Source: Oscillospiraceae bacterium
GTDB taxonomy: Bacteria > Bacillota > Clostridia > Oscillospirales > Oscillospiraceae
Direction: 5' to 3'
Assembly (NCBI GenBank): GCA_015067465.1
Contig: SVMK01000008.1
Location: forward strand, 1 to 49,572
Length of the DNA: 49,572 bases
Shown here piece by piece: positions 8,069-31,220 of the stretch; position 1 is the stretch's first letter; each line of letters opens with the position of its first letter. The position numbers and the translations under genes are program-made. Below the pieces are notes generated by a model. That model did no database searches. It was not told where the DNA came from and was given only the letters and a program-made list of their open reading frames with translations.

Positions 8069-8356
8069 ATGTCTATCATGTCCGGATGCCAAGGCAAACC
8101 CACAAGCCCTACCATTCACGAGAAAGTCTGTCCCCGGTGCGGCAACATCATCGAGATTTTTTCCATCGACACGCAGATCCCCTGCGACAATTGCGGCTTT
8201 GTGGCCTACAACGACACGCTCAGCTGCGTGCAGTGGTGCCAGTATGCGCGAAAATGCGTGGGCGACGAGATGTATGAGCATATGATGGAGATCGCCGCGC
8301 TGCAAAAGCAGAAAGCCGCCGAGGAACGGCAGCGGAAAGAGGAGGAGAACGCATGA
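8069..8356 (+). CDS. Small zinc-ribbon protein of unknown function
   Basis: This 95-residue protein carries CPRCG near residue 18 and CDNCG near residue 36, a typical zinc ribbon. Three further cysteines follow (CVQWCQYARKC), and the C-terminus is a charged helix rich in Gln, Lys and Glu. The extra cysteines could complete a metal or iron-sulphur site. ATG 8069 is preceded at ideal distance by AAGGAGG (8054-8060); an in-frame GTG at 8060 overlaps that site and is unlikely to be the start. Its stop overlaps the next start by four bases (ATGA), so it is translationally coupled to the ferredoxin-type protein and the two probably work together. I do not recognise a named function. Confidence 0.85.
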   Translation: MSIMSGCQGKPTSPTIHEKVCPRCGNIIEIFSIDTQIPCDNCGFVAYNDTLSCVQWCQYARKCVGDEMYEHMMEIAALQKQKAAEERQRKEEENA

Positions 8357-9018
8357 TCAGACGAATCATTACCATCGACGAAGCAAAATGCAACGGCTGC
8401 GGTCTTTGCGCGGACGCCTGCCATGAAGGCGCCATCGGCATCGTGGACGGCAAAGCGAAGCTGCTGCGCGAAGATTACTGCGACGGTCTCGGCGACTGTC
8501 TGCCCGCCTGCCCCATGAACGCCATCTCCTTTGAGGAACGGGAAGCTCCGGCCTACGACGAAGCCGCCGTGCTGGCTGCCAAAAAAGCCGGGGCAGCGTC
8601 GGCTTGCGCCTGTTCCGGCGCCGCATGCGAAAACGGCACGCCCGAGCGCGTTCCCGGCGAGCTTGCCAACTTCCCGGTGCAGATCAAGCTCGCACCGGTC
8701 ACCGCCCCGTTTTTCAACGGTGCGGATCTTCTGATCGCCGCCGACTGCACCGCCTATGCTTACGGCAGCTTCCACCGCGATTTTATCCGCGGTAAGATAA
8801 CGCTCATCGCCTGTCCCAAGCTCGACGGCGTGGATTATTCCGAAAAACTCACCGCCATTTTCGCAGACAACGACATCCGCTCCATCACCCTCGCGCGCAT
8901 GACCGTTCCCTGCTGCGGCGGCCTTGCCCACGCGGTAAAAACCGCCATTGAGCGCTGCGGCAAGTCGATCCCCCTGCAGATTACAACCATCAGCCCGGAC
9001 GGCGGAATCGTGACGTAA
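8353..9018 (+). CDS. 4Fe-4S ferredoxin-domain protein
   Basis: This 221-residue protein has an N-terminal two-cluster ferredoxin domain: CNGCGLCADAC (about residues 13-23) and the unusual spacing CDGLGDCLPACP (about 43-54). A linker with CACSGAAC follows, then a C-terminal domain of about 120 residues with CTAYAYGS, ACPKLD and MTVPCCGG motifs. It probably passes electrons to or from an unidentified partner in the cytoplasm. The C-terminal cysteines may bind a further metal. It is coupled to the upstream zinc-ribbon gene by a four-base overlap, and the Crp/Fnr gene precedes both, suggesting redox or stress control. Specific role unknown. Confidence 0.85.
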   Translation: MIRRIITIDEAKCNGCGLCADACHEGAIGIVDGKAKLLREDYCDGLGDCLPACPMNAISFEEREAPAYDEAAVLAAKKAGAASACACSGAACENGTPERVPGELANFPVQIKLAPVTAPFFNGADLLIAADCTAYAYGSFHRDFIRGKITLIACPKLDGVDYSEKLTAIFADNDIRSITLARMTVPCCGGLAHAVKTAIERCGKSIPLQITTISPDGGIVT

Positions 9019-9126: not shown

Positions 9127-10257
9127 ATGGACGCTGCAAAAGTTTATTTTTCCGATTTCAGAACCGGATACGGCGGAAAGAGCATTCCCGAAAAATTCCG
9201 CAAGCTGGCACTTGCTGCCGGCATCGACCAAATTGACATGAACGGCAAGTTTGTCGCCATCAAGCTGCACTTCGGCGAACTCGGCAACCTCGGCTTCCTT
9301 CGTCCGAACTACGCCAGAGTGATTGTCGATATTGTAAAAGCGCTTGGCGGCAAACCTTTCCTGACCGACTGCAGCACCATGTATGTCGGTTCGCGCAAAA
9401 ACGCCGTTGAGCATCTCTACTGCGCATGGGAAAACGGCTTCACCCCCATGACCGTCGGCTGCCCCATCATCATCGGCGACGGCCTGAAAGGCACGGATGA
9501 TGTTGCCGTTCCCCTCGAAGGCTGCGAATACACCAAAGAAGCCATGATCGGCCGCGCCGTGATGGATGCCGACATTGTGATCAGCCTGTCCCACTTCAAG
9601 GGCCATGAGCTTGCCGGCTTTGGCGGCGCGATCAAAAACCTCGGCATGGGCTGTGGCTCCCGTGCCGGCAAAAAGGACATGCACTCCTCCGGCAAGCCCG
9701 TGATTAACGCCGAGCTGTGCCGCGGCTGCAAGCTGTGCATGCGCGAGTGCGCCAACAACGGCCTTGTGTTCGACGAAGCCACCGGGAAAATGACAATCAA
9801 CGAAAGCGAATGCGTCGGCTGCGGCAGATGCCTCGGCGCATGCAACTTCGACGCTGTCGAATTCGCTCAGAATCAGGCCGCTTCCATCCTCAACGCCAAG
9901 ATGGCGGAATATTCCAAGGCCGTTGTGCAGGGCCGCCCCAACTTCCACCTTTCCGTGGTTGTGGACGTTTCCCCCTTCTGCGACTGCCACAGCGAAAACG
10001 ACGCTCCCATCCTGCCCGACATCGGCATGTTTGCATCGTTTGACCCCGTCGCCCTGGACCAGGCCTGCGCGGACGCCTGCCTGAAAGCAGAGCCTATCCG
10101 CAATTCCCTGCTCGGCGACCATATGCACGCCGACGGTTTTGTGGACCATCATGACCACTTCAAAAACACCACGCCGGAATCCGAGTGGGAATCCCAGCTC
10201 ATCCACGCCGAAAAGATCGGTCTCGGCACCCGCGCGTACGAACTGGTCACCATCTGA
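9127..10257 (+). CDS. DUF362 domain protein with two 4Fe-4S clusters
   Basis: This 376-residue cytoplasmic protein has a DUF362 domain (about residues 30-320) interrupted near 200-240 by a bacterial ferredoxin insert. The insert has two motifs, CRGCKLCMRECA and CVGCGRCLGACN, each typical of a [4Fe-4S] cluster. Segments such as SLSHFKGHELAGFGGAIKNL are characteristic of DUF362 proteins, which are widespread in anaerobes and have no settled biochemical role; redox or metallocofactor functions have been suggested. The start ATG follows CCGGAGG by seven bases. It stands alone between its own promoter and a strong terminator, next to other iron-sulphur genes. Confidence 0.9.
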   Translation: MDAAKVYFSDFRTGYGGKSIPEKFRKLALAAGIDQIDMNGKFVAIKLHFGELGNLGFLRPNYARVIVDIVKALGGKPFLTDCSTMYVGSRKNAVEHLYCAWENGFTPMTVGCPIIIGDGLKGTDDVAVPLEGCEYTKEAMIGRAVMDADIVISLSHFKGHELAGFGGAIKNLGMGCGSRAGKKDMHSSGKPVINAELCRGCKLCMRECANNGLVFDEATGKMTINESECVGCGRCLGACNFDAVEFAQNQAASILNAKMAEYSKAVVQGRPNFHLSVVVDVSPFCDCHSENDAPILPDIGMFASFDPVALDQACADACLKAEPIRNSLLGDHMHADGFVDHHDHFKNTTPESEWESQLIHAEKIGLGTRAYELVTI

Positions 10258-10344: not shown

Positions 10345-11328
10345 TCAGATCGTCTGGGCCGCGCAGATGGCAACCAGCTCTGCGTCGATCTTGCGCAGCA
10401 CCTCGGTGATCACGGTGCGGCTGCTCGCAATAAAGGCCTCCGCCTCCGTGGAAAGACTCTCCTTGCGATACACCATGCAGAAACCGGAAAGCTCGTCGAG
10501 ATCGTTCACGGGAAAAATCAAAACCTGCTCCGCACCCAGCTCGCGGCACAGCTTGCGGTGGAGCAGCTCGCGCGAGGCAAAGCAGCCGCACACGCCCGTT
10601 TTGCTCAGCTCAAACAAAACGTCGTGGTCTGCGGTTTCCAGCACCACGTTCGGGTGCTGGGAATGCTTGGAAAAGCGGCGCTCAAAGATGAGACGCAGCG
10701 TGCTGGTGGTGGGCGGCAGGGCAAGGGGAAATTCGCAGGCATCCTGCACGGAGATGCCGCCGCGATGCGCGCGCAGAAATGCTGCCGCGCCGTCCCCGAG
10801 CGTCCTTGTAAGGAGATTGCGCCCCACGACGAAATAGAGCTTGTCGCGATAAAGGATGTCCGCAGGCACGCGGGCGCGGATGTTGCTGGTCATGCCCGTA
10901 TACAGCTCCAGCTTCTCGAGCTGATACTGCTGCTCGATGTATTCATAGTTGCCCGAAACGATGGAGGGCACCACATTGGGAAAGCGCTTGCGGTATTCCG
11001 CGAAAATCCGCGGAAGAAACACGCTGCCGCGCGTGCTCGTCATGCCGATGCTCAGCCGGACGCGGTTGGCCTGAGCCTCGTCGCGCAGCGCAACATAGAG
11101 ATCGCGGTCGGCCTCCAGAATGCTGCGGGCATACGCCAGCATCCGCTCGCCCTGACTGGTGAGCGCAAGGCGCCCGCCGCGGGTGAAAAAAACCGCGTCG
11201 TGCTGCTTTTCCAGCTTGCGGATGTGCTCGCTGAGCGACTGCTGCGAGATAAACAGCTTGGCGGCCGCACGGGTGAAATTCAGTTCCTCCGCCGCCACGG
11301 TGAAGTAATAAAGACCGATATGGTTCAT
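10345..11328 (-). CDS. LysR family transcriptional regulator
   Basis: This 327-residue protein has an N-terminal winged HTH (FTVAAEELNFTRAAAKLFIS, then QQSLSEHIRKLE, residues 8-40) and a LysR effector-binding domain from about 90. The start at 11328 is supported by GGAGGG seven bases upstream; a longer open frame to 11397 lacks such a site and would add residues before the HTH. It is divergent from the first glycyl radical enzyme gene, with 186 bases between them containing a 7-bp-arm inverted repeat. LysR regulators commonly activate a divergent catabolic operon in response to its substrate, so it is the likely switch for the enzyme/transporter island. Confidence 0.93.
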   Translation of the reverse strand: MNHIGLYYFTVAAEELNFTRAAAKLFISQQSLSEHIRKLEKQHDAVFFTRGGRLALTSQGERMLAYARSILEADRDLYVALRDEAQANRVRLSIGMTSTRGSVFLPRIFAEYRKRFPNVVPSIVSGNYEYIEQQYQLEKLELYTGMTSNIRARVPADILYRDKLYFVVGRNLLTRTLGDGAAAFLRAHRGGISVQDACEFPLALPPTTSTLRLIFERRFSKHSQHPNVVLETADHDVLFELSKTGVCGCFASRELLHRKLCRELGAEQVLIFPVNDLDELSGFCMVYRKESLSTEAEAFIASSRTVITEVLRKIDAELVAICAAQTI

Positions 11329-11402
11329 GCCGCATCCCTCCGGCAACAGCATACCACGCCCGCAGGAAAAACGCAAGCGTTCACCGATGATAATCAAAAA
11401 AT

Positions 11403-11514: not shown

Positions 11515-13911
11515 ATGACGGACAGAGTTGCACGCATGAAAGAACGCCTGAATGTGGATCGCTATCCAATCTGCGCGGAGAAGGCACGATACGTCATCGA
11601 GGCGTGGAAACAGCATGAGGGCCTGCCCTCTGTCCTGCAGCGCGCCTATGCCACGGCAAACTATCTTGACAAGCGAACCCTTTATGTCGACGACGACGAG
11701 CTGATCGTCGGCAACGTTGCCTCGAAGCCCATGGGTATGGAGGCCTCCACCTGGGGCCCCTTCTGGGAGGACGACGACCTTGACGGCATGGTTGGCGAGG
11801 GCGGCAAGTTTTCCATCACGCCGGAAGACCGCGCGGAGCTGCGCAGCTACGACAGTTTCTGGGCCGGTCAGGGCCGCCAGTTCTACGAGTGGCAGGGCCG
11901 CTTCTATGACGACTGGCACCTTTGGCCCTTCATCCGCTCCGGCATTCTCTGCCCGCCTTGGAAAGACCGCGAAAAAGGCCGCGGCGCCGGCGGCGCCGGC
12001 TTCGGCTGGGGCATGGGCATCGCGCTGAGCTTCTTCGTTCCCGACTATGCCAAAATTGTCACCGAGGGCGTCAGCAAAACCCTGCACGACGCCGAGGAGG
12101 AGCTGCGCCGCCTGACCTATCACGACGCCGAGAGCTTCGACAAAGCGCAGTATCTCAAGGCCGTTATCATTGCGCTCAGCGCGATGGTGCGCATGTATCA
12201 CCGCTACGGCGACGCCTGCCTTGCCAAAGCCGCCGAAACGGCGGACGCGCAGCGCAAGGCCGAGCTTGAGCGCATGGCGGACACCTGCCACTGGATCGCG
12301 GAAAACCCCAGCCGCAACTTCCGCGACGCACTGCAGAACTTCTATTTCTACTGGATGATGATCGCCCACGGCACCACGCCCGGCGGACGCTTCGACCAGT
12401 ATATGTATCCCTTCTACAAGCGCGATATCGAGTCCGGCGCCATCACCGACGACGAAGTGCTGGAGCTGCTGGAAATGCTGCGCGTGAAAATCATGCAGTT
12501 CAACTTTGTCAACGGCGGCGCGCAGCAGCGCGACAAGTGGGCCGGCATGGCACGCTGGCACAACTTCCTCATCGGCGGCGTGAAACCCGACGGCAGCGAC
12601 GCCACCAACGAGCTGAGCTATCTTGTCCTTCAGGCGGCCTATGAGGTTCGCATCCCGCAGTACACCATCACCGTCCGCGTTGCCAAAAGCACGCCGCAGA
12701 AGCTTTTGCTGAAGTCCGCGGAGCTGGTGCGCACCGGCATCGGCATGCCTGCCTTCGTTTCCGACGAAAGCTACATTGCCGGATTGGTGGAGCAGGGCAT
12801 CCCCATCGAGGAGGCCCGCGACTACGCGCTGGCCGGCTGCCTTGACCTGAATCTGCCCGGCAAAAGCCGCATCAACGCGCTCGGCATGTTCATCGTTCCG
12901 AAGGTGCTCGACATCACGATGCACAACGGCATCCTCACCCAGACCGGCGAGCAGCTCGGCCCGCAGACCGGCGAGATGAAGGACTTCCGGACCTTTGAGG
13001 ACTTCATGGCTGCGTTCCAAACCCAGCTGAAGCACTTCATGGGCCTTTACAATGAGGAGCACAACATTCTCATTCGCGTTTCGCGCGAAACCAACTGCGA
13101 CGTTGTCCACTCCGCGTTCACCCACGAGGGCATCTCCTCCGGGCGCGACATGTTTGACCGCAGGATGTTTTACGAAAACGCCTCCATGTTCAACCCCATC
13201 GGCATGATCAACGTTGCCAACTCCATGGCAAGCGTGAAAAAGCTGGTGTTCGACGAAAAGCGCTTCACCATGGAAACGCTCTACAACGCCATTGAGGCCA
13301 ACTGGGAAGGCTATGAGGACATCCGCGCCATGTGCGCCGCAGCGCCCAAATTCGGCAACAACGATCCCTATGTGGACGATCTCGCCGCGCAGCTTTACGA
13401 TTTCTGGATTCAGACAACGGCAAGTTTCCGCACCATCTACGGCGCGCCGCCCCGCCCCACCGGCGTTTCCATCACGGCGCACGCCCCCGGCGGCAGCTAC
13501 ACCTGCGCCACCCCGGACGGACGCTACAGCGGCGAAACGCTTTGCGACGGCGTGATGAGCCCCACGCAGGGCACGGACCGCGAAGGCCCGCTCCAGTCGC
13601 TGATGAGCGCCATGCGCATCAACCAGACGCCCTTCAACGCCGCGCTGCTCAACATGAAGATCGCCCCCGGCGCCATGAAGACCGATGCGGATCTGGAAAA
13701 ATTCGTCGCGCTGGTGAAGACCTATATGTTCAACGGCGGCAAGCACATCCAGTTCAACGTTGTTTCCAACGAAACGCTGCTCGCAGCACAGGCCGAGCCG
13801 CAAAAATACTCTGACCTGATCGTTCGCGTCGCGGGTTACAGCACTTACTTCACGCTGCTGACACCCGCCGTGCAGAACGAAATCATCAAGCGCACCGAAA
13901 ATCAGCTTTGA
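11515..13911 (+). CDS. Glycyl radical enzyme (PFL/dehydratase superfamily), GRE1
   Basis: This 798-residue enzyme has the usual glycyl radical enzyme length, with a PFL-type N-terminal domain, a barrel core and a C-terminal radical domain. The radical Gly774 lies in VRVAGYSTYF and the thiyl Cys442 in ALAGCLDLNLPGKS. The GGRFDQYMYPFYK segment (about 290) is typical of the family. Known dehydratases and lyases (CutC, glycerol dehydratase, HypD) have Cys-x-Glu at the active site; here it is Cys-Leu-Asp, and the residue two after the Tyr is Thr instead of the usual small residue. I therefore cannot assign a known substrate. It lies ahead of a tricarboxylate-type transporter, suggesting a carboxylate. 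The activating radical SAM enzyme is not in this window. Confidence 0.93.
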   Translation: MTDRVARMKERLNVDRYPICAEKARYVIEAWKQHEGLPSVLQRAYATANYLDKRTLYVDDDELIVGNVASKPMGMEASTWGPFWEDDDLDGMVGEGGKFSITPEDRAELRSYDSFWAGQGRQFYEWQGRFYDDWHLWPFIRSGILCPPWKDREKGRGAGGAGFGWGMGIALSFFVPDYAKIVTEGVSKTLHDAEEELRRLTYHDAESFDKAQYLKAVIIALSAMVRMYHRYGDACLAKAAETADAQRKAELERMADTCHWIAENPSRNFRDALQNFYFYWMMIAHGTTPGGRFDQYMYPFYKRDIESGAITDDEVLELLEMLRVKIMQFNFVNGGAQQRDKWAGMARWHNFLIGGVKPDGSDATNELSYLVLQAAYEVRIPQYTITVRVAKSTPQKLLLKSAELVRTGIGMPAFVSDESYIAGLVEQGIPIEEARDYALAGCLDLNLPGKSRINALGMFIVPKVLDITMHNGILTQTGEQLGPQTGEMKDFRTFEDFMAAFQTQLKHFMGLYNEEHNILIRVSRETNCDVVHSAFTHEGISSGRDMFDRRMFYENASMFNPIGMINVANSMASVKKLVFDEKRFTMETLYNAIEANWEGYEDIRAMCAAAPKFGNNDPYVDDLAAQLYDFWIQTTASFRTIYGAPPRPTGVSITAHAPGGSYTCATPDGRYSGETLCDGVMSPTQGTDREGPLQSLMSAMRINQTPFNAALLNMKIAPGAMKTDADLEKFVALVKTYMFNGGKHIQFNVVSNETLLAAQAEPQKYSDLIVRVAGYSTYFTLLTPAVQNEIIKRTENQL

Positions 13912-13952: not shown

Positions 13953-14013
13953 ATTTTTATAACCGACTTCGTTCAATTTCACGCAATATCATCTGATTAT
14001 TGGAGGCATGTCA

Positions 14014-14505
14014 ATGAACGCAAAAAAGAAAGACCGGCTTTTGGGCATTATCCTTCTGCTGATCTCCCTGTTCTTCTTCTATTTCACGATGCAGCAGGAT
14101 GCGGCCCGCTTTGAGGGTGACCCCGGTCCCAAAATGTTTCCGATCGTCGGCTGCGTCATCACTGCCGTGTGCGGCGTGCTGACGATCGTGAGTCCCTCCA
14201 AGACGGAGGGCAAAACCTACCTCAGCAAAGAGGAATTCAAGCGCGCAGCCAAGCTTTTCGGGCTTTATGCGTCTTTCCTTGTTCTGCTCTGGGGCCTCGG
14301 CTTCATGGTCACGGCGCCGCTGCTGCTGTTTTGCATCTCGGTTCTGTTCTCCTATGAGTCCCGTCCGGACGATTCCATCGGCAAGCGCCTGCTCCGCAGC
14401 GCCATTTATGCGGTCATCGTCGGCGGCGCGCTCTATCTGCTCTATGTCACCGTGCTGCAAACCCAGCTGCCCAAGGGCGCGCTGTGGCAACTTTTCAAAA
14501 AGTAA
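14014..14505 (+). CDS. tctB: Tripartite tricarboxylate transporter small subunit TctB
   Basis: This 163-residue protein has about four membrane helices, the size and hydrophobic pattern of TctB, the small membrane subunit of tripartite tricarboxylate (TTT) transporters. It starts LLGIILLLISLFFFYFTMQQ near residue 8, and the DPGPKMFP segment after helix 1 is characteristic. The start is ATG 14014, because TGGAGG (14001-14006) is seven bases upstream; the in-frame ATG at 14008 is too close to the ribosome-binding site. TctA follows after 15 bases. It works with TctA in the membrane and the TctC lipoprotein outside. Confidence 0.9.
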   Translation: MNAKKKDRLLGIILLLISLFFFYFTMQQDAARFEGDPGPKMFPIVGCVITAVCGVLTIVSPSKTEGKTYLSKEEFKRAAKLFGLYASFLVLLWGLGFMVTAPLLLFCISVLFSYESRPDDSIGKRLLRSAIYAVIVGGALYLLYVTVLQTQLPKGALWQLFKK

Positions 14506-14520
14506 AGGAGGTTCAACGAC

Positions 14521-16038
14521 ATGTGGGAATATATTCTTGATTCGCTCCAGGCGCTGGCCTCCGTCACCGGCGTGCTCTATATCCTGCTCGGCTCTCTCAT
14601 CGGCATGCTCTTCGGCTCCCTTCCCGGCCTTGCCGGCGGCACCGTCATGGTCATGCTGCTGCCCATCACCTACAAGATGAACCCCGTGCTGGCGCTGGCG
14701 CTGTTTGTTTCCATCCACATCGGCTCCACTTCCGGCGGCTGCATCGGCTCCATCCTGCTCGGCATCCCCGGCACCAGTTCCTCCATCGCAACGGTGTGGG
14801 ACGGCTATGAGTTCACCAAGAAGGGCGATCCCGTCCGCCCCCTCAGCGTGGCGGTTGTCTGCAACTTCCTGGGCACCATCCCCTCCATCATCATCGCCAT
14901 GCTCGCCGCGCGCGTGCTGGCGGACTGGGGCGTGAAGCTCGGTCCCTGGGAATATGCCGCAATGTGCTTCTGCGCCGTCGCCATGGTCGTCGGCCTGAGC
15001 GAGGGCAACCTCGTCAAGGGCATCGCCGGCGTCGGTCTTGCCATTCTGCTGTGCTCCATCGGCCCCGACCCCATCAGCGGCCGTATGCGCCTCACCTTCG
15101 GCAACATGTACCTCTACGACGGCTTCAACATCATCAACATCATGCTCGGCATGTTCGCCGCCAAGATCATTCTTCTGGAGTATGCCCGCCGCACCAAGGC
15201 GCAGGACGCTTCCAAGATCAAGGTGCGCGGCTTCAAGTGGCCGGGCAAGGACATTCTCGACAACCTCGGCAACCTCATCCGCTCGTTCCTCACCGGCGCT
15301 TTCATCGGCTTCCTGCCCGGTCTCGGTGCCCCGACCTCTACGGTCATCGCCTATTCCAACGAGCGCAACATGGATAAGAAAAACAAAGATCTCTGGGGCA
15401 AGGGCCACATCGGCGGCGTTATCGCCCCCGAAGTTGCAAACAACGCCGGCATCGGCGGCGCCATGATCCCCATGCTGGCCCTCGGCATCCCGGGCGACGC
15501 CATCATGGTGCAGTTTATGGCCGTTATGAGCATCCACGGCGTGCAGACCGGCCCCATGCTGATGACCACAAACCCCGAGATGGTCTACATGCTCTTCACC
15601 GCAGCCATCATCGCAGGTGTCTTCGTCCTTCTGGTGGAAGCCGCCGGCATGCCGCTGTTCCCGAAATTCATCTCCATGCCCTACCACTTCCTGTATCCGA
15701 CCATCATCGTCATCAGCTTCGTCGGCGCATACATGACCGCAGGCAACCTGCTCGGCGTGATCGTCACCCTCTGCGCCTGCCTGCTCGGCCTCGGCATGGA
15801 CTATTTCGGCGTTCCCACCACGCCCTTCATCATGATGTTCATCCTCAGCTCCCTGCTGGAAAAGAACATCCGCCAGGGTATGAACCGCTCGTTCAACGGC
15901 GTGGCAGACTTCTTCACCCGCCCCGTGTCCCTCGCGTTCATCGTCGTGGGCGTGGCCGTGCTGGTGCTCCACACCGTGCTCCCCGCAATCAAGGCCGCCA
16001 GAGCCAAAAAGGCCGCCGCACAGACCGCGGAGGAGTAA
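14521..16038 (+). CDS. tctA: Tripartite tricarboxylate transporter large permease TctA
   Basis: This 505-residue protein has eleven to twelve membrane helices. It shows the conserved TctA segments FGSLPGLAGGTVMVMLLPIT near residue 36 and its inverted-repeat partner GFLPGLGAPTSTVIAYSNER near 263, plus GIPGTSSS and GIPGDAIM. This is the channel-forming subunit that moves small carboxylates with a cation gradient. AAAGGAGG precedes the ATG. It lies between TctB and TctC in one operon. Placement between two glycyl radical enzymes suggests it imports their substrate. Family assignment is firm; substrate specificity cannot be read from sequence. Confidence 0.95.
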   Translation: MWEYILDSLQALASVTGVLYILLGSLIGMLFGSLPGLAGGTVMVMLLPITYKMNPVLALALFVSIHIGSTSGGCIGSILLGIPGTSSSIATVWDGYEFTKKGDPVRPLSVAVVCNFLGTIPSIIIAMLAARVLADWGVKLGPWEYAAMCFCAVAMVVGLSEGNLVKGIAGVGLAILLCSIGPDPISGRMRLTFGNMYLYDGFNIINIMLGMFAAKIILLEYARRTKAQDASKIKVRGFKWPGKDILDNLGNLIRSFLTGAFIGFLPGLGAPTSTVIAYSNERNMDKKNKDLWGKGHIGGVIAPEVANNAGIGGAMIPMLALGIPGDAIMVQFMAVMSIHGVQTGPMLMTTNPEMVYMLFTAAIIAGVFVLLVEAAGMPLFPKFISMPYHFLYPTIIVISFVGAYMTAGNLLGVIVTLCACLLGLGMDYFGVPTTPFIMMFILSSLLEKNIRQGMNRSFNGVADFFTRPVSLAFIVVGVAVLVLHTVLPAIKAARAKKAAAQTAEE

Positions 16039-16116: not shown

Positions 16117-17217
16117 ATGAAGAAAATCATCGCCCTTCTGCTGGCTGTCATTCTTGTTATGTCCCTTGCAGCCTGCGGCAGCAGCAAGCCCGCTGCCACC
16201 GAAACCCCCGCACCCGCAGCTCCCGAAGCCCCCGCACCCGCAGCTCCCGACTCCGCCGAGCCCGCTCCCGCTCCTGCGGTTGAATGGCCCACCGGCGACG
16301 TCACCATCCTGGTTCCCGCCGACGTCGGCGCTCCCCTGGATCTGGCAACCCGCGTTATGAAGGACTATCTGCAGGAAAAGACCGGCTTCAACATCATCGT
16401 TGAAAACGACGGCACCGGCGGCGGCGCCAAGCTCGGCGAGAAGCTTTACAACGCTCCCACCGACGGCAGCGTCCTGATGTATGCCGGCGGCGGCCAGGTG
16501 CCCCCCTACTACACCGGCTCCTGGGGCCACAACCTCTCCAACCCCGATGACTACACCATCGTTTCCTCCATGGTCGGCCTGGCAGTTCCCTCCGGCGCCG
16601 TCGTGGTCACCCAGCCCGATGCTCCCTACGACAGCTGGGAAGCTCTGGTGCAGTATGTCAAGGACAACCCCAACACCATCATCGCCGGCGCTGCCAACGG
16701 CACGCCCCACGAAGTCCGTCTGAAGCTCCTGCTTCGCGAAGAGGGCATTCTGGATAAGGTCCGCTGGATCTCCGGCACCAACAACGACATCTCCACCGGT
16801 CTGCTCGGCGGCAGCATCAACGTCGGCATGCTGACCGAGACTGCCGGCCCGCAGTTCATGGTTGAAGGCAAGCTCAAGGGCCTGCTTTACAGCAACGTCA
16901 CCCGCAACTACGCCGGTGCACCCGAAGTGGTCGCCGCGCTCGACGCCATCCCCACCGTTGCCGACATCTACGGCGACGAGAAGGCTCCCGATCTGACCTG
17001 CGCATGGCCCATGGCTCTGGCCGGCCCTGCAGGCATGGACGAGGCACTGGCCGACAAGATCTGCGAAGTTGTCAACACCATCGTCGACAGCCCCGAGTAT
17101 ATGGAGCGCGTCAAGGCTCTTGGCGGCACCAACACCTTCCAGGACTTCTCCCGCGACGAAATGCGCGAGATGATGGATCGCGTTGACGCGCAGTGCCAGA
17201 GCTTCTTCGCCGGCTGA
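16117..17217 (+). CDS. tctC: TctC substrate-binding lipoprotein of the TTT transporter
   Basis: This 366-residue extracytoplasmic binding protein has a lipoprotein signal peptide ending in SLAAC with lipidated Cys20. A Pro/Ala-rich spacer (residues 25-54) follows, then a TctC/Bug-type binding fold. Typical family features are the GGGAKLGEKLYNAPTDGSVL region near 107 and repeated GAANGTPHEV and GLLYSN segments. TTAGGAGG lies just upstream of the ATG. The spacer contains a 24-base tandem duplication at DNA level. It captures the substrate outside the membrane and hands it to TctAB. Its terminator at 17252 separates it from GRE2. Confidence 0.94.
   Translation: MKKIIALLLAVILVMSLAACGSSKPAATETPAPAAPEAPAPAAPDSAEPAPAPAVEWPTGDVTILVPADVGAPLDLATRVMKDYLQEKTGFNIIVENDGTGGGAKLGEKLYNAPTDGSVLMYAGGGQVPPYYTGSWGHNLSNPDDYTIVSSMVGLAVPSGAVVVTQPDAPYDSWEALVQYVKDNPNTIIAGAANGTPHEVRLKLLLREEGILDKVRWISGTNNDISTGLLGGSINVGMLTETAGPQFMVEGKLKGLLYSNVTRNYAGAPEVVAALDAIPTVADIYGDEKAPDLTCAWPMALAGPAGMDEALADKICEVVNTIVDSPEYMERVKALGGTNTFQDFSRDEMREMMDRVDAQCQSFFAG
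16205..16250 (+). repeat. 24-base tandem duplication in the TctC spacer
   Basis: The 22-base block at 16205-16226 recurs exactly at 16229-16250, giving two copies of an eight-codon Pro/Ala unit behind the lipidated cysteine. It lengthens the flexible tether and may vary in copy number between strains. Confidence 0.8.
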
Positions 17218-17280: not shown

Positions 17281-17335
17281 TAAAAACCGACGCAAACAGA
17301 GTCTTTTTTATTGAGTATGATAAGGGGTGCAAGGC

Positions 17336-19735
17336 ATGAACACTGAACGCATTGAACGCATCAAAAAGACCGTCATGGTCGATCACTACCCCATCTGCAT
17401 CGAAAAATTCCGCATCACCCTGGACGTGCGCGAGGAAACGCGCAACGACAGCGTTATCATCCAGCGCGGCAAAATTTTGAAAGCCTGCGCAGAGCGTATG
17501 CCCATCGCCATCGGCGACGATGAGCTGATCGTCGGCATCGCATCCAGCAAACACATGGGCCTTGAGATCGACCCGGACTACGGCATTTGGCCGCAAAACG
17601 AGATCGACAGCCTGAAGGCTGACGGTTTCATTGTTGACCCGCAGGACGAGCGTGACCTGCAGGAACTGAACAAGCGCTACACACCCAACACCCTCATCGG
17701 GCAGATGGGCAACATTTTCTACGACAACGAACGATTGATCAACATGCTGCGCGCAGGTCTGATCCTTCCGCCCTGGAAGCCGAAGGAAACCGAGCGCGGC
17801 GTCGGCGGCGGCTATGCCCAGAGCGGTCTGGGCCTTGGGCCTTCGCTGGTGCTGCTGTGCGTGGAGTATGACAAAATCCTGAAATACGGCACGAACGAGC
17901 TTATCCGTCAGGCCAGAGAATGCCAAAGCAAGATCCGCTTCACCGATATGGAGGCACTGGACAAGCACCGCTACTACGACAGCGTTGTGATGGCCTTTGA
18001 GGCGATGAACACCCTCGCCGCGCGCTATGCCGCGCTGGCCGACGAAATGGCGCAGAAGGAATCCCGACCGGAACGCAAAGCAGAGCTGGAGCAGATCGCA
18101 GCCATCTGCCGCACCGTACCGCAGAATCCTGCAAAATCCTTCCGCGAAGCCATCCAGGCCTTCTGGTTCCAGATTCTCTTCCTCAGCCCCTCCACCACGC
18201 TGCCCGGCGGTCGCTTCGACCAGTATATGTATCCCTACTACAAGGCCGATCTGGACGCAGGAAAGATTACCGCTGACGAGGCGCTGGAGCTTTTGTGCAT
18301 GCTGCGCCTGAAGGACATGGAGCTTGGCCGCACCTCCGGCAGCGAGCTGCGCAAGAAAAACTCCGGCATGGCCAAATGGCACAACTACACCATCGGCGGC
18401 GTGGACCCCATCACCGGGGAGGACGCCACCAACGACCTGACCTATCTGCTCATCGACGCCGCCATGGCGACGAAAACGCCGCACAACACCCTGACGCTGC
18501 GCGTTCATGAAAAAACGCCGCCCGCGCTGATGAAGCGCGCGCTGGAATGCGTGCGCCTCGGCCTCGGTATGCCCGCCTTCGTCAGCGACGGCAGTTACAC
18601 TGCAACCTTCGCCTCCCGCGGCTGCCCGATTGAGTACGCTCGCGACTTTGTCATGACCGGCTGCCTGGACGGCAACCTGCCCGGCAAGAGCCGCACCGGC
18701 CCCGTTCCGATGGTCACTTTCCCGCTCATCTTCGACATCTTCCGCCACAACGGCATCGACATCAAAACCGGCCTGCAGGCAGGCATCGACGTCGGCAACT
18801 TCGCGGACTTTGAAACCTATGAGGAGATGTTTGCCGCCCTCAGCCGCGAAATCGACTATCTCCTCCGCCTGATCGGCGAGAAAAACAACGTGGAGCTTGC
18901 CATCACGCAGGAGCTGCTGTTTGACCCGCTGCGCAGCGCGCTGATGTTTGAAGGCATCGAGTCCGGCAAGGACACCTGGAAGCGTGTGATGCCCTTTGAA
19001 AACTGCGCCGTGGTCAACCCCATCGGCATGGTCAACCTCGGCGACTCACTGGCCGCCGTCAAGAAGCTCTGCTTCGACGACAAGAAGTATACGCTTGCGG
19101 AGCTTGGCAAAGCCCTCGACGCCGACTGGGTTGGCTATGAGGACATGCAGCGCGACTTTGAAGCCGCGCCGAAGTACGGCAACGACATCGACTATGTGGA
19201 CAACATTGTTGCCGACTGCTATAAACTCCTCAACGACACGGTGGCAACCATCCCGAACATTCTCGGTCACCCCACCATCGCAACCGGCATCTCCATCACC
19301 TCCCACCAGCCCGGCGGTCAGCTCACCGGCGCAACGCCGGACGGACGCAAGGCCGGCAGCATCCTCGCCGACGGCACCACCTCTCCCATGCACGGCATGG
19401 ACCGCTGCGGCCCCACGGCAGTGTTCAAGAGCGCGATGAAGATCGACCAGGATCCCATGCAGGCAACGCTGCTGAACATGAAGTTCCCGCCCTCCGTTCT
19501 GAAAACGGACGCGGACCTCGCCAAGCTCGGCGCCCTGATTCAGACCTATCTGACCAACGGCGGCAAGCAGGTGCAGTTCAACGTCGTCGACCAGAAAACG
19601 CTTCTGGCCGCGCAGGAATCGCCGAAGGAATACCGCGACCTCGTCGTGCGTGTTGCCGGCTACAGCACCTATTTTGTGACGCTCTCCCGCTCCATGCAGG
19701 ATGAGGTCATCGACCGCACCAGCCAGGATCTGTAA
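17336..19735 (+). CDS. Glycyl radical enzyme paralogue, GRE2
   Basis: This 799-residue enzyme shares GRE1's length and its start (RIKKTVMVDHYPICIEK), barrel motifs (GGRFDQYMYPYYKAD) and signature sites. Radical Gly775 is in VRVAGYSTYF and thiyl Cys443 in MTGCLDGNLPGKS. Both paralogues share the unusual Cys-Leu-Asp and GYST, so they form one subfamily, but they diverge widely elsewhere, which argues for different substrates or steps. ATG 17336 is preferred: AGGGG lies about eight bases upstream, and the alternative GTG at 17327 overlaps that site. A terminator on each side makes it its own transcription unit. It needs an activase encoded elsewhere. The reaction is unknown. Confidence 0.92.
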   Translation: MNTERIERIKKTVMVDHYPICIEKFRITLDVREETRNDSVIIQRGKILKACAERMPIAIGDDELIVGIASSKHMGLEIDPDYGIWPQNEIDSLKADGFIVDPQDERDLQELNKRYTPNTLIGQMGNIFYDNERLINMLRAGLILPPWKPKETERGVGGGYAQSGLGLGPSLVLLCVEYDKILKYGTNELIRQARECQSKIRFTDMEALDKHRYYDSVVMAFEAMNTLAARYAALADEMAQKESRPERKAELEQIAAICRTVPQNPAKSFREAIQAFWFQILFLSPSTTLPGGRFDQYMYPYYKADLDAGKITADEALELLCMLRLKDMELGRTSGSELRKKNSGMAKWHNYTIGGVDPITGEDATNDLTYLLIDAAMATKTPHNTLTLRVHEKTPPALMKRALECVRLGLGMPAFVSDGSYTATFASRGCPIEYARDFVMTGCLDGNLPGKSRTGPVPMVTFPLIFDIFRHNGIDIKTGLQAGIDVGNFADFETYEEMFAALSREIDYLLRLIGEKNNVELAITQELLFDPLRSALMFEGIESGKDTWKRVMPFENCAVVNPIGMVNLGDSLAAVKKLCFDDKKYTLAELGKALDADWVGYEDMQRDFEAAPKYGNDIDYVDNIVADCYKLLNDTVATIPNILGHPTIATGISITSHQPGGQLTGATPDGRKAGSILADGTTSPMHGMDRCGPTAVFKSAMKIDQDPMQATLLNMKFPPSVLKTDADLAKLGALIQTYLTNGGKQVQFNVVDQKTLLAAQESPKEYRDLVVRVAGYSTYFVTLSRSMQDEVIDRTSQDL

Positions 19736-27935: not shown

Positions 27936-28535
27936 ATGGCCTATCCCGGCCCCAAAATCAAGGCTGCTCAATGCATGCTTACACTTTACCCGGACAGCCA
28001 GCAAGAAGTCATAGAATACATAATCAACAATTTCAGCTGCGCTTACGCGCTGCACGATATGGATATTTGGACGCAGGAGGAAATAGATGAGAAAACCGCC
28101 CTTAATCCCGAAACGCCATTTCCATACACCGCAGGAGAATTGAAAAAGCCACATTACCATTTTATCTTAACGTTTTCCGGTTCCGGGCGATACTTTCATG
28201 CAATAGCAAATGAGCTGGGCGTGCCAATGAACACCATCTGCCGTTGCAATTCCCTGCGCCGGGCGTATGAATACCTTTGGCACAAGAACAACCCCGAAAA
28301 GTACCAATACAGCCCCGACATTGTGCAAACCCATGACTTTGAGATTCCCAGCGAGTCAAGCATCGGCAGAGAGGAAGAAGAACAGGTGCGCATCTTGCTT
28401 GAAATGCCCGCTTTTGAAACTACCTATGAATGCGCACGCTGGGCTTGGGAAAACAAAGTGTGGGCTGCGTTTCGCCGAGGCTACGCTATTTGGCGCGACA
28501 TTCGAAACGAAACTCACGAAAGGAACTACCACTGA
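27936..28535 (+). CDS. HUH rolling-circle replication initiator/relaxase, Rep_2-like
   Basis: This 199-residue protein has the three motifs of the pMV158-type Rep group: ALHDMD (motif I, about 41-46), the metal-binding HUH motif PHYHF (His73, His75) and a catalytic-tyrosine motif RAYEYLWHKN (Tyr111/Tyr113). It should nick a hairpin origin and start rolling-circle replication; related proteins act as relaxases in integrative mobilizable elements. The start at 27936 has AAAGAGGTGA upstream, and the open frame further upstream runs across the origin hairpins. It overlaps the FtsK-like gene by one base (TGATG), implying coupling. The candidate nick site is 30-50 bases ahead of the gene. Confidence 0.86.
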   Translation: MAYPGPKIKAAQCMLTLYPDSQQEVIEYIINNFSCAYALHDMDIWTQEEIDEKTALNPETPFPYTAGELKKPHYHFILTFSGSGRYFHAIANELGVPMNTICRCNSLRRAYEYLWHKNNPEKYQYSPDIVQTHDFEIPSESSIGREEEEQVRILLEMPAFETTYECARWAWENKVWAAFRRGYAIWRDIRNETHERNYH

Positions 28536-29770
28536 TGGATGACTCTCGCTTACACAAATTAACCACGTGGTTGAAATACCACTATCCAACGTTACTTAAA
28601 ACCATATCCCTTGCTGCATACCTTGCATTTGCAGGATGGCTCCTGCTCTTTTCTCTCCGCTATGAAAACTACATTACATACGGCATAGCTGTAGTGGCCT
28701 GTGTTGGCCTTGTTGCGCTCCTCTTGCGCTTTCGTCGCCCCTTCAACAAGTACTCCGTCACAGAGCAACTTATAACCATCGGCTTCACTAACCATATCGG
28801 CGAAGCCCCGGAACTGCTACGCAAGTACAGAGATCGCGAACGCCCGCAAATACTTGTATTTGAGTTCCGCAATCCGAGCATAGCTCTGAGCCAATGGGAA
28901 AAGTCTCAGGAGATATTGGAGGCCGCATTGAACGTCAGTATTATTGACATCTCCTACCATGTGGACAAGCGCAGGGTTGTCATCCGTACTGTCCCGGCAA
29001 AAAGCAGCATCCCCGCCCGCCTTAATTGGAGCGATAAATTGCTGACTTCCGACGAATTCACACTTGTTCTCGGTCAAAGTGCACTTTGCCCGGTGACTGT
29101 CGATCTCACGCATATCCCTCATATACTATTAGGAGGCTCAACAGGCAGCGGCAAAACGGCTTTACTCAGACTTTTACTTATGCAGGCACTCAAAAAGCAT
29201 GCCAGCGTCATCATTTCAGATTTCAAAGGGGGAGTCGATTTTCCCCGAATCTGGCATGAACACTGCACGATGTGTTTTGACGAGCAATCATTGCTTGAGC
29301 AGTTGGATTTTCTCGCTGCCACCTTAGAAGAACGCCGCGGCCTTTTGGTAGATTCCGAATGCCGCAATCTGGAGGAATACAATTCGAAATCCGAATTTCC
29401 ATTACCCCGCTACATACTCGCTTGCGATGAGGTTGCTGAAGTACTAGATAATACAGGTCGTTCAAAAGAGCAAAAGGAAGTTCTGAGCCAGATTGAAGCT
29501 CGTCTTTCGCTCATAGCAAGGCAAGGACGTGCTTTTGGAATACACCTCATTCTCTCAACGCAGCGTCCTTCTGCCGACCTTATACCCGGGCAAATCCGTA
29601 CAAACCTTGGGTTTAGAGTCTGTGGGCGAGCCGATGCTATACTGTCGCAAATCATATTGGACAATACTGCAGCAGAGCAAATTCCCAAGAATGCGAGAGG
29701 CCGCTTTATGTTGAGTGACGGCACAACATTTCAGGCATACTGGTTTAACGAGGAGGATTTTGAACTATGA
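28535..29770 (+). CDS. FtsK/SpoIIIE-type DNA translocase (TcpA-like coupling protein)
   Basis: This 411-residue protein has two N-terminal membrane helices (about residues 20-65) and an FtsK/SpoIIIE motor domain with Walker A GGSTGSGKT (200-208, Lys207) and Walker B-like YILACDEVAEV. LILSTQRPSADLIPGQIRTN is the usual FtsK-type sensor segment. It is shorter than cell-division FtsK and lacks the gamma DNA-reading domain, matching coupling proteins of ICEs and mobilizable elements that pump DNA to a secretion channel. The start overlaps rep by one base, and its end overlaps the excisionase by four, so rep, ftsK and xis form one operon. Confidence 0.88.
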   Translation: MDDSRLHKLTTWLKYHYPTLLKTISLAAYLAFAGWLLLFSLRYENYITYGIAVVACVGLVALLLRFRRPFNKYSVTEQLITIGFTNHIGEAPELLRKYRDRERPQILVFEFRNPSIALSQWEKSQEILEAALNVSIIDISYHVDKRRVVIRTVPAKSSIPARLNWSDKLLTSDEFTLVLGQSALCPVTVDLTHIPHILLGGSTGSGKTALLRLLLMQALKKHASVIISDFKGGVDFPRIWHEHCTMCFDEQSLLEQLDFLAATLEERRGLLVDSECRNLEEYNSKSEFPLPRYILACDEVAEVLDNTGRSKEQKEVLSQIEARLSLIARQGRAFGIHLILSTQRPSADLIPGQIRTNLGFRVCGRADAILSQIILDNTAAEQIPKNARGRFMLSDGTTFQAYWFNEEDFEL

Positions 29771-29949
29771 GCACTGAAGACTTACCTTTAGCATTAACCG
29801 TAGAAGATGTTGCTAAAATTCTAGGAATAGGGCGAAATTCCGCCTACAGCCTCATACATAGCGGAGCCATCAGATTCGTCAGAATTGGCCGCCAGCTCCG
29901 CATTCCAAAGAGTGCAATTCTAGAGTATCTAGGTATACCGACGCCTTGA
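29767..29949 (+). CDS. Excisionase / MerR-like HTH DNA-binding protein
   Basis: This 60-residue protein is a single HTH_17-type domain: LTVEDVAKILGIGRNSAYSL, then IHSGAIRFVRIGRQLRIPKS, and ends shortly after. Proteins of this form directly upstream of a tyrosine integrase act as excisionases (Xis), bending DNA near the att sites and favouring excision. It overlaps the FtsK-like gene by four bases, and the integrase start lies 68 bases downstream. Confidence 0.88.
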   Translation: MSTEDLPLALTVEDVAKILGIGRNSAYSLIHSGAIRFVRIGRQLRIPKSAILEYLGIPTP

Positions 29950-30017
29950 CCTTTGAGCGGCGCAGAGTTAGAATTGCTTTGATATATTCTGCGCTGCACT
30001 TTGAAAGGAGGCATATG

Positions 30018-31220
30018 ATGCCGCGCAGTAAAAGCACTCGTGCCGCTCAAGGCACTGGAACAATTCGTAAGCGAACCGTCATGCGCAAGGGAAGGGAATA
30101 CACCTACTGGGAAGCGCGTGTTACCATTGGGCGAGATCCCGGAACCGGAAAGCAGATTCAAAAGACGTTTACAGGAAAAACGCAAAAAGAAGTTCGCGAA
30201 AAAATGCAATCCGTTGCAGCCGAGGTTAATGATAACTGCTATCGAGAACCCACAAAAATGACGGTTGGTGAGTGGCTGGATATTTGGAAAGATACATATC
30301 TTGTGAATGTCAAACCGTTTACTGTTCGCTCGTATTCAGATCATATCAGAAATCATCTGAAGCCTGCCTTCGGTGCGCTGAGATTGGACGCACTGGAAAC
30401 TCACACCATACAAAAGTTTTATAATGACTTGGGGAAACCAAAAGGCAATAAACCGGGGCTTTCCGCCAAGACAATCAAAAACGTGCACGGCGTTTTGCAT
30501 GCTGCGCTTAATAAAGCGGTTATGCTCGGATATATTCGCTATAATCCTACGGCTGCCTGTACGCTACCTCGCGTAGAGAAAAAGCAAATGCACCCACTCG
30601 ATGAGGATGGAATCAGAGATTTCCTGCAAGCCGTACAAGGGCATAGATTTGAGGAAATTTTCAGGTTTACGTTGTTTACAGGCGTAAGAGAGGGCGAAGC
30701 GCTAGGCCTCAAATGGGAGTGTGTAGACTTCAATAGCGGCACGATTCTGATAGACAAGCAACTACAGCGCGAAAAGGTAAAAAACGGCAAATATCGTTTT
30801 GCACCGCTAAAAAACGATAAGTTCCGCAAAATTTCCCCTGCGCCTTGGGTAATGCAAAGATTGTGGAGCCATAAGGCCAGACAATTTGCGCAGCGCACGG
30901 AGGTTGCGGAACTTTGGGAAAACAGTGGGCTTGTATTTACAAATGCTGTTGGCGGACATATAGCCATCCACACATTGTACAAAGACTTCAAAGCTGTTGT
31001 TGCGTCTATCGGCAGACCGGAAGTAAGATTTCACGATTTAAGACACAGTTATGCGGTTGCTTCCATAAGAGCCGGTGACGATATTAAAACCGTTCAGGGC
31101 AATCTCGGACACGCAACGGCTGCGTTTACGCTTGATGTTTATGGACATGTCACCGACCAAATGAAGCAAGAAAGCGCGAGACGCATGGACAACTACATCA
31201 AATCAGTTCTAAACCTCTAA
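30018..31220 (+). CDS. int: Tyrosine site-specific integrase
   Basis: This 400-residue integrase has an AP2-like N-terminal arm-binding domain (about 15-60), a SAM-like core-binding domain (about 80-175) and a catalytic domain with Arg224 (TGVREGE), His339 and Arg342 (HDLRHSYA), His365 (LGH) and nucleophile Tyr375 (DVYGH). All catalytic residues are present, so the enzyme is probably active. ATG 30018 follows AAAGGAGG by six bases; the adjacent ATG 30015 is possible. The stop lies at the edge of the tandem arm-type repeats and 80 bases from attR at tRNA-Ser, so this enzyme almost certainly integrated the element. Confidence 0.95.
   Translation: MPRSKSTRAAQGTGTIRKRTVMRKGREYTYWEARVTIGRDPGTGKQIQKTFTGKTQKEVREKMQSVAAEVNDNCYREPTKMTVGEWLDIWKDTYLVNVKPFTVRSYSDHIRNHLKPAFGALRLDALETHTIQKFYNDLGKPKGNKPGLSAKTIKNVHGVLHAALNKAVMLGYIRYNPTAACTLPRVEKKQMHPLDEDGIRDFLQAVQGHRFEEIFRFTLFTGVREGEALGLKWECVDFNSGTILIDKQLQREKVKNGKYRFAPLKNDKFRKISPAPWVMQRLWSHKARQFAQRTEVAELWENSGLVFTNAVGGHIAIHTLYKDFKAVVASIGRPEVRFHDLRHSYAVASIRAGDDIKTVQGNLGHATAAFTLDVYGHVTDQMKQESARRMDNYIKSVLNL

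Follow-up and report, generated by a model that had tools for sequence, protein, structure and literature searches.

A Cys-x-Asp branch of the glycyl radical enzymes encoded beside tricarboxylate transporter genes in a gut Oscillospiraceae bacterium

Glycyl radical enzymes (GREs) follow a standard scheme in which an activase generates a radical on a glycine residue, the radical is passed to a cysteine to give a thiyl radical, and hydrogen is then abstracted from the substrate. The closest described systems to the proteins analyzed here are the B12-independent glycerol and 1,2-propanediol dehydratases (GD and PD; structures 1r8w, 5i2g, and 9rco), in which the residue two after the thiyl cysteine is glutamate (Cys-x-Glu, CxE); in GD its partner is the histidine of a GxGH motif. 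The X-succinate synthases (BSS and MASS), which carry out fumarate addition, have small Fe-S accessory subunits encoded nearby. The arylacetate decarboxylase of Olsenella scatoligenes (7e7l) cleaves a carboxylate and has leucine two after the thiyl cysteine (GCVLHQVPGKQ), so that one decarboxylase is already known to lack the glutamate. The trans-4-hydroxy-L-proline dehydratase, HypD, has an acid substrate and, at homologous positions, a CxE/His/Asp network. Isethionate sulfite-lyase (IslA/IseG) and HpsG are GREs fitted to a negatively charged substrate; IslA binds the anion through Arg189, Gln193, and Arg678, retains CxE, and is the sole GRE eliminase reported with tryptophan at its Trp374 position (PMC8473560). 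In the aminoacyl radical enzymes (AAREs), which are unassigned GRE-family enzymes of anaerobes that are in part encoded side by side, the radical glycine is replaced by Ala, Ser, or Thr (PMC11528403).

The window, that is, the whole 49,572-nucleotide stretch of Oscillospiraceae DNA analyzed, encodes a GRE of 798 amino acids (GRE1; 11515..13911, forward strand) that matches the Pfam PFL-like (525 bits) and Gly_radical (100 bits) families. In-frame translation of 12823-12864 gives YALAGCLDLNLPGK, and the Cys loop, AGCLDLNLPGKS (12832..12867), carries Cys442-Leu443-Asp444 at 12838-12846, with Cys442 encoded by the codon at 12838-12840. Together with this mid-protein cysteine, GRE1 has a glycyl fingerprint of the superfamily form RVxG[FWY], namely RVAGYS, which places the radical residue at Gly774. 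HMMER alignments to solved structures put Cys442 on the Cys loop of GD, PD, CutC, and HpsG with Asp444 opposite the glutamate and no gap, and Asp444 also lies, again without gaps, opposite the Cys-x-Glu glutamate of HypD. A MAFFT alignment of 178 GREs has cysteine in the Cys442 column in 107/107 full-length members of the clade described below and in 64/64 other GREs. The alignments thus agree on Cys442, which rules out a wrong choice of thiyl cysteine and bears out the original prediction that this residue is the thiyl cysteine and that aspartate replaces the CxE glutamate in GRE1. A sequencing error behind the aspartate was ruled out by the presence of three Cys-x-Asp (CxD) GREs in the source genome and of more than 100 relatives. 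Two further points of that prediction needed revision: the NLPGKS stretch after the motif is not specific to the family in full, as GD and PD share a PGK-like stretch in the HMMER alignments, and the part of general base given to the glutamate is not universal, as a different role has been proposed for it in HypD (PMC7077986).

An AF2 model of GRE1 (pLDDT 94.2, pTM 0.93), for which the alignment was built without plasmid-derived rows, has the 10-stranded GRE barrel and aligns along its whole length with GRE structures, all top fold matches being GREs. The best match was GD 1r8w (Z 46.9, rmsd 1.7), and the glycerol/1,2-propanediol dehydratases together gave Z values of 46-47 at rmsd 1.7 and 32% identity; they are also alike in the Cys loop, the Gly loop, and radical-SAM activation. 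The X-succinate synthases scored lower against the model (Z 37-43), and no small accessory subunit like theirs was noticed among the genes of the window. Because nearly all GREs score alike, such fold searches do not discriminate GRE subfamilies or reactions. The arylacetate decarboxylase 7e7l was the third-best match by sequence among solved structures (411 bits, 32% identity). None of the NCBIfam equivalogs (CutC, HypD, HpsG, HpfG, indoleacetate decarboxylase, HPAD, and PFL) scored above its cut-off, all reaching about half of it or less; the best score for GRE1 was 512 bits against a cut-off of 1000 for a sulfopropanediol dehydratase model, and the HypD model gave 477 against 1100.

Relatives were collected by whole-genome searches and one scan of genome contigs (77 loci), and further GREs were added from records of Clostridia and of plasmids. 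From the 178 aligned GREs, 113 (GRE1, a second GRE of the window termed GRE2, a third GRE of the source genome, and 110 relatives) formed a group with scores clearly apart from the remainder. In both a FastTree (88 rows) and an IQ-TREE (59 rows) phylogeny, computed with column 444 excluded, a single, fully supported branch (100) separated this group from all other sequences, so that the phylogeny called for by the original prediction places the CxD members in one clade. Clade members are found in records of Bacillota, Chloroflexota, Spirochaetota, Acidobacteriota, Pseudomonadota, Myxococcota, and Actinomycetota, mostly metagenome-assembled genomes, and the lowest identity between members is ~ 40%, across six or more phyla. 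Cultured carriers include Clostridium sp. chh4-2 and Geosporobacter ferrireducens. The clade is rare: genomes over threshold numbered 2/197 in the order, 2/391 in the class, and 2/398 in the phylum, the source genome being one of each pair. Every member covering the position keeps the radical glycine, in which the clade differs from the AAREs. A search of the open-licence literature found no CxD GRE and no GRE tied to MmgE/PrpD, tricarballylate, or TTT carriers. The GRE1 motif marks a separate GRE subfamily, unnamed by curated models, and not one odd enzyme.

Residue 444 is aspartate in 100 of the 107 full-length clade members, the others having Glu (5), Ala (1), or Gly (1), while the 64 other GREs have Glu (55), Val (3), Gln (3), or His (3) and in no case Asp; in keeping with the original prediction, none of the assigned subfamilies examined has aspartate there. 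These counts may be biased, as one of the two search patterns contained ‘GC[LV]D’ and with it the aspartate. Among the 55 clade members that the remainder of that pattern shuts out, 49 have Asp, five Glu, and one Ala, and the relatives from protein searches are likewise CxD, which rules out the aspartate as an artefact of the search.

Further changes accompany the aspartate. The GxGH histidine, which partners the glutamate in GD and HypD, occurs in 50/64 outsiders and is Leu or Phe in 101/107 clade members, although its presence is not universal even elsewhere, CutC having Asp there. Column 286 is Glu in 57/64 outsiders and Ser or Gly in 96/107 clade members, and equivalents of HypD His160 and Glu436 are missing from the clade. 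Arg339, Trp348, and Lys743 are present in 107/107 clade members, including all those with Glu, Ala, or Gly at position 444, and are not invariant among the other GREs. In comparison with the glycerol/1,2-propanediol dehydratases, the clade therefore has CxD in place of CxE, no GxGH histidine, an additional invariant Arg/Trp/Lys set, and acid carriers encoded nearby; in comparison with IslA, it lacks CxE, and Trp348 probably corresponds to IslA Trp374. By homology, Arg339 and residue 342 would lie in a short helix with substrate-contacting residues such as Ser334 of HypD (PMC7077986).

The different substrate geometry or chemistry that had been proposed from the aspartate is made likelier by the loss of the GxGH histidine and the invariance of Arg339, Trp348, and Lys743; the aspartate by itself is indecisive, given that 5/107 members have Glu and two more Ala or Gly, and, as Glu recurs, the change could be a conservative one. 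With Glu present in five members that retain the other clade residues intact, Asp444 is most reasonably regarded as one part of a remodelled pocket and not as its sole determinant. The surrounding residues, the pairing of GRE types, and the gene context constitute stronger evidence than the aspartate itself. The T1-type members with Cys-Leu-Glu inside the Asp clade (L067, L068, L069, L076, and L096) provide natural variants on which the part played by the acid can be tested.

GRE2 (17327..19735, forward strand; 802 amino acids; Pfam PFL-like and Gly_radical) is 43% identical to GRE1 and has Cys446-Leu-Asp448 in TGCLDGNLPGKS, with Gly778 as the radical glycine. The third GRE of the source genome, on contig C51, has the Cys loop GCVDGNVPARS and is likewise CxD; the end of contig C45 overlaps C51 by 28 bases and completes this gene. 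The GRE1 type (T1) forms a well-supported subclade, and the GRE2 type (T2) is not certainly monophyletic in the IQ-TREE phylogeny. The two types occur together in 28 of the 30 loci that have more than one clade member, and these paired loci span Bacillota, Chloroflexota, Spirochaetota, Myxococcota, and Pseudomonadota. All of the ~ 17 T1-bearing genomes contain T2-like genes and several genomes contain T2-like genes only, the typing by identity to GRE1 being approximate; where a T1 gene is alone on its contig, T2-like genes are found elsewhere in the same genome. Position 342, equivalent to Phe333 of GD, is Trp in 49/49 T1 and Asn in 48/56 T2 proteins, which suggests that the two types have different substrates or catalyze different steps.

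The genes for GRE1 and GRE2 flank those of a tripartite tricarboxylate transporter, all on the forward strand: TctB, the small membrane subunit (14008..14505; Pfam TctB), TctA, the large membrane subunit (14521..16038; Pfam TctA), and TctC, the lipoprotein solute-binding protein (16117..17217; Pfam TctC). The T1/Tct/T2 set recurs in L025, L026, L029, and L030, and TctB adjoins clade GREs in seven loci, window included. A LysR-type regulator (10345..11397, reverse strand; Pfam HTH_1 and LysR_substrate; neighbour cluster 31) is divergent from GRE1 and is kept at the same place in L025, L027, L029, and L030. Upstream, and outside the parts claimed for the locus, are genes for a 4Fe-4S protein (8353-9018) and a DUF362 protein (9127-10257). 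No activase is encoded within the window, and a clade-type radical-SAM activase (508 bits; L163, 4423-5385) was identified on contig C100 of the source genome, together with a URO-D gene and a second TctABC set; this genome has only two TctA genes, one between GRE1 and GRE2 and the other near that activase. Its sole MmgE/PrpD gene is on C45, along with CapA and a fragment of URO-D. The split URO-D gene suggests that C45 and C100 are adjacent and goes no further than that, because no sequence overlap was found between the two contigs.

Neighbours in the 76 scanned loci included activase (33), MmgE/PrpD (20), CapA-like PGA_cap (18), MatC (17), and URO-D-like (13) genes, and more rarely TctA (6), CoA-transferase III (5), and HGD-type dehydratase (5). 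Acid carriers, counted as MatC, TctA, or DctM, were present in 27/76 loci; in some loci, peptide-type ABC transporters take their place. A polycarboxylic acid substrate is proposed mainly because the conserved carriers nearest the GREs belong to acid-transporting families; that all members share one substrate is uncertain, because transporter and neighbour families vary between loci. CapA-like PGA_cap proteins are usually linked to capsule synthesis, and in 18/76 loci (L047, L055, L056, L058, L062, L067-L069, and others) they stand beside catabolic GRE genes.

The favoured interpretation of these data, put forward tentatively and as slightly short of evenly balanced, is that GRE1 and GRE2 are functional GREs of the CxD subfamily that degrade an imported polycarboxylic acid by a cleavage other than diol dehydration in a remodelled site. 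The intact cysteine, glycine, and GRE fold of GRE1 support this reading, while the nearest solved structures, being those of ordinary CxE dehydratases, count against it. TctABC would import the acid, and the activase encoded on C100 would generate a radical on Gly774 that passes to Cys442, whose thiyl radical would take hydrogen from the substrate. By homology, the carboxylates may be held by Arg339 and Lys743 together with Trp348, giving a site fitted, as those of IslA and HpsG are, to negative charge. Asp444, lacking a histidine partner, could position or deprotonate the substrate in a different geometry, and the conserved residues suggest that the subfamily probably does not use the classic Glu/His dehydratase mechanism. 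The outcome would most likely be radical C-C or decarboxylative cleavage, or else elimination from a hydroxy-polycarboxylate, with products passing to MmgE/PrpD, CoA transfer, and 2-hydroxyacyl-CoA dehydratase steps. Within the same catabolism, T1 and T2 would act as separate enzymes whose pockets differ (Trp and Asn, respectively, at the position of GD Phe333). A bolder proposal is that T1 and T2 use an Asp-based site to decarboxylate aliphatic polycarboxylic acids, or to cleave their C-C bonds, by a radical reaction new for GREs, and so supply MmgE/PrpD and CoA-dependent degradation in anaerobes of the gut and the subsurface; this is possible but rather doubtful.

It is quite possible, if on the unlikely side, that these proteins are conventional GRE eliminases in which a slightly shifted Asp444 does the work of the CxE glutamate in the dehydration or 1,2-elimination of a hydroxy-acid. 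The nearest folds are those of the glycerol/propanediol dehydratases (Z ~ 46-47, rmsd 1.7), Asp and Glu interchange within the clade, and IslA provides the example of a GRE eliminase that binds an anion by means of added arginines (PMC8473560); against this, the partner histidine of GD and HypD is gone in 101/107 members, as is the column-286 glutamate, and in two members the acid itself is replaced by Ala or Gly. The occurrence of Glu, Ala, and Gly within the clade, with the other clade residues kept, could also be taken to mean that the aspartate is a neutral lineage marker that leaves the chemistry unaffected. That appears unlikely, as it has been kept in > 90% of a clade with ~ 40% minimum identity and six or more phyla, and goes with loss of the glutamate's partner histidine.

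Carboxylate cleavage on aromatic acids, in the manner of arylacetate decarboxylase, is suggested by the high rank of 7e7l, itself without the glutamate, and by downstream CoA-transferase III and HGD-type dehydratase genes that recall aromatic-acid fermentation. However, identity to 7e7l is only 32%, its fold is no nearer than those of the dehydratases, and the indoleacetate-decarboxylase and HPAD models score far under their cut-offs. The neighbouring carriers are moreover of the tricarboxylate/dicarboxylate type, which to our knowledge are not known for monocarboxylic arylacetates, and we know of no TctABC, MatC, or PrpD context for 7e7l; this assignment is accordingly improbable. Nor is it probable that GRE1 and GRE2 form one heteromeric enzyme, an idea that would explain why T1 and T2 are paired in five phyla and why T1-bearing genomes each have T2-like genes, even though some genomes have the latter only. 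Both GRE1 and GRE2 retain the cysteine and glycine, the two types are often on different contigs, and IslA and other characterized GRE eliminases are described as single-chain-type dimers (PMC8473560). In L041, T1 and T2 each have their own PucR, MatC, and MmgE/PrpD genes, and these separate modules favour parallel enzymes over a heteromer.

The reading of GRE1 and GRE2 as polycarboxylate-degrading GREs concerns a gut bacterium with two oxygen-sensitive GREs of the CxD branch next to genes for organic-acid import. A branch in which the CxE glutamate is replaced, the histidine lost, and Arg/Trp/Lys fixed represents a distinct active site, and its residues provide a simple sequence test for annotating genes that curated family models leave unnamed. 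The linked transporter offers a direct route to the substrate through the ligand of TctC (16117-17217). Should the acids come from the diet or the host, gut and rumen communities would be credited with a new anaerobic pathway, and genes of the same clade also occur in subsurface Chloroflexota and other groups.

Several minor observations were made. Adjoining clade GREs, a separate long-branched GRE group has Cys-x-His (L088, 205-2625 and 5383-7842; L064, 3545-5731), for which no near solved relative was found. A clade GRE with Cys-Leu-Gly is encoded on a plasmid of Novosphingobium sp. PP1Y (L152, 14001-16385), a strain with generally aerobic relatives, and no clade-type activase was found within 14 kb of this gene. 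In the window, downstream of the GRE genes at 28430-31220, an ORF for an FtsK-like ATPase is followed by one that resembles a tyrosine recombinase/integrase by the impression of its sequence, which suggests an integrated mobile element. Finally, a 1.9 Mb Bacillota metagenome-assembled genome from goat omasum (G578; L059, L087, and L096) contains 13 CxD-clade matches, mostly on one contig and several of them consecutive, an unusual expansion of one GRE family.
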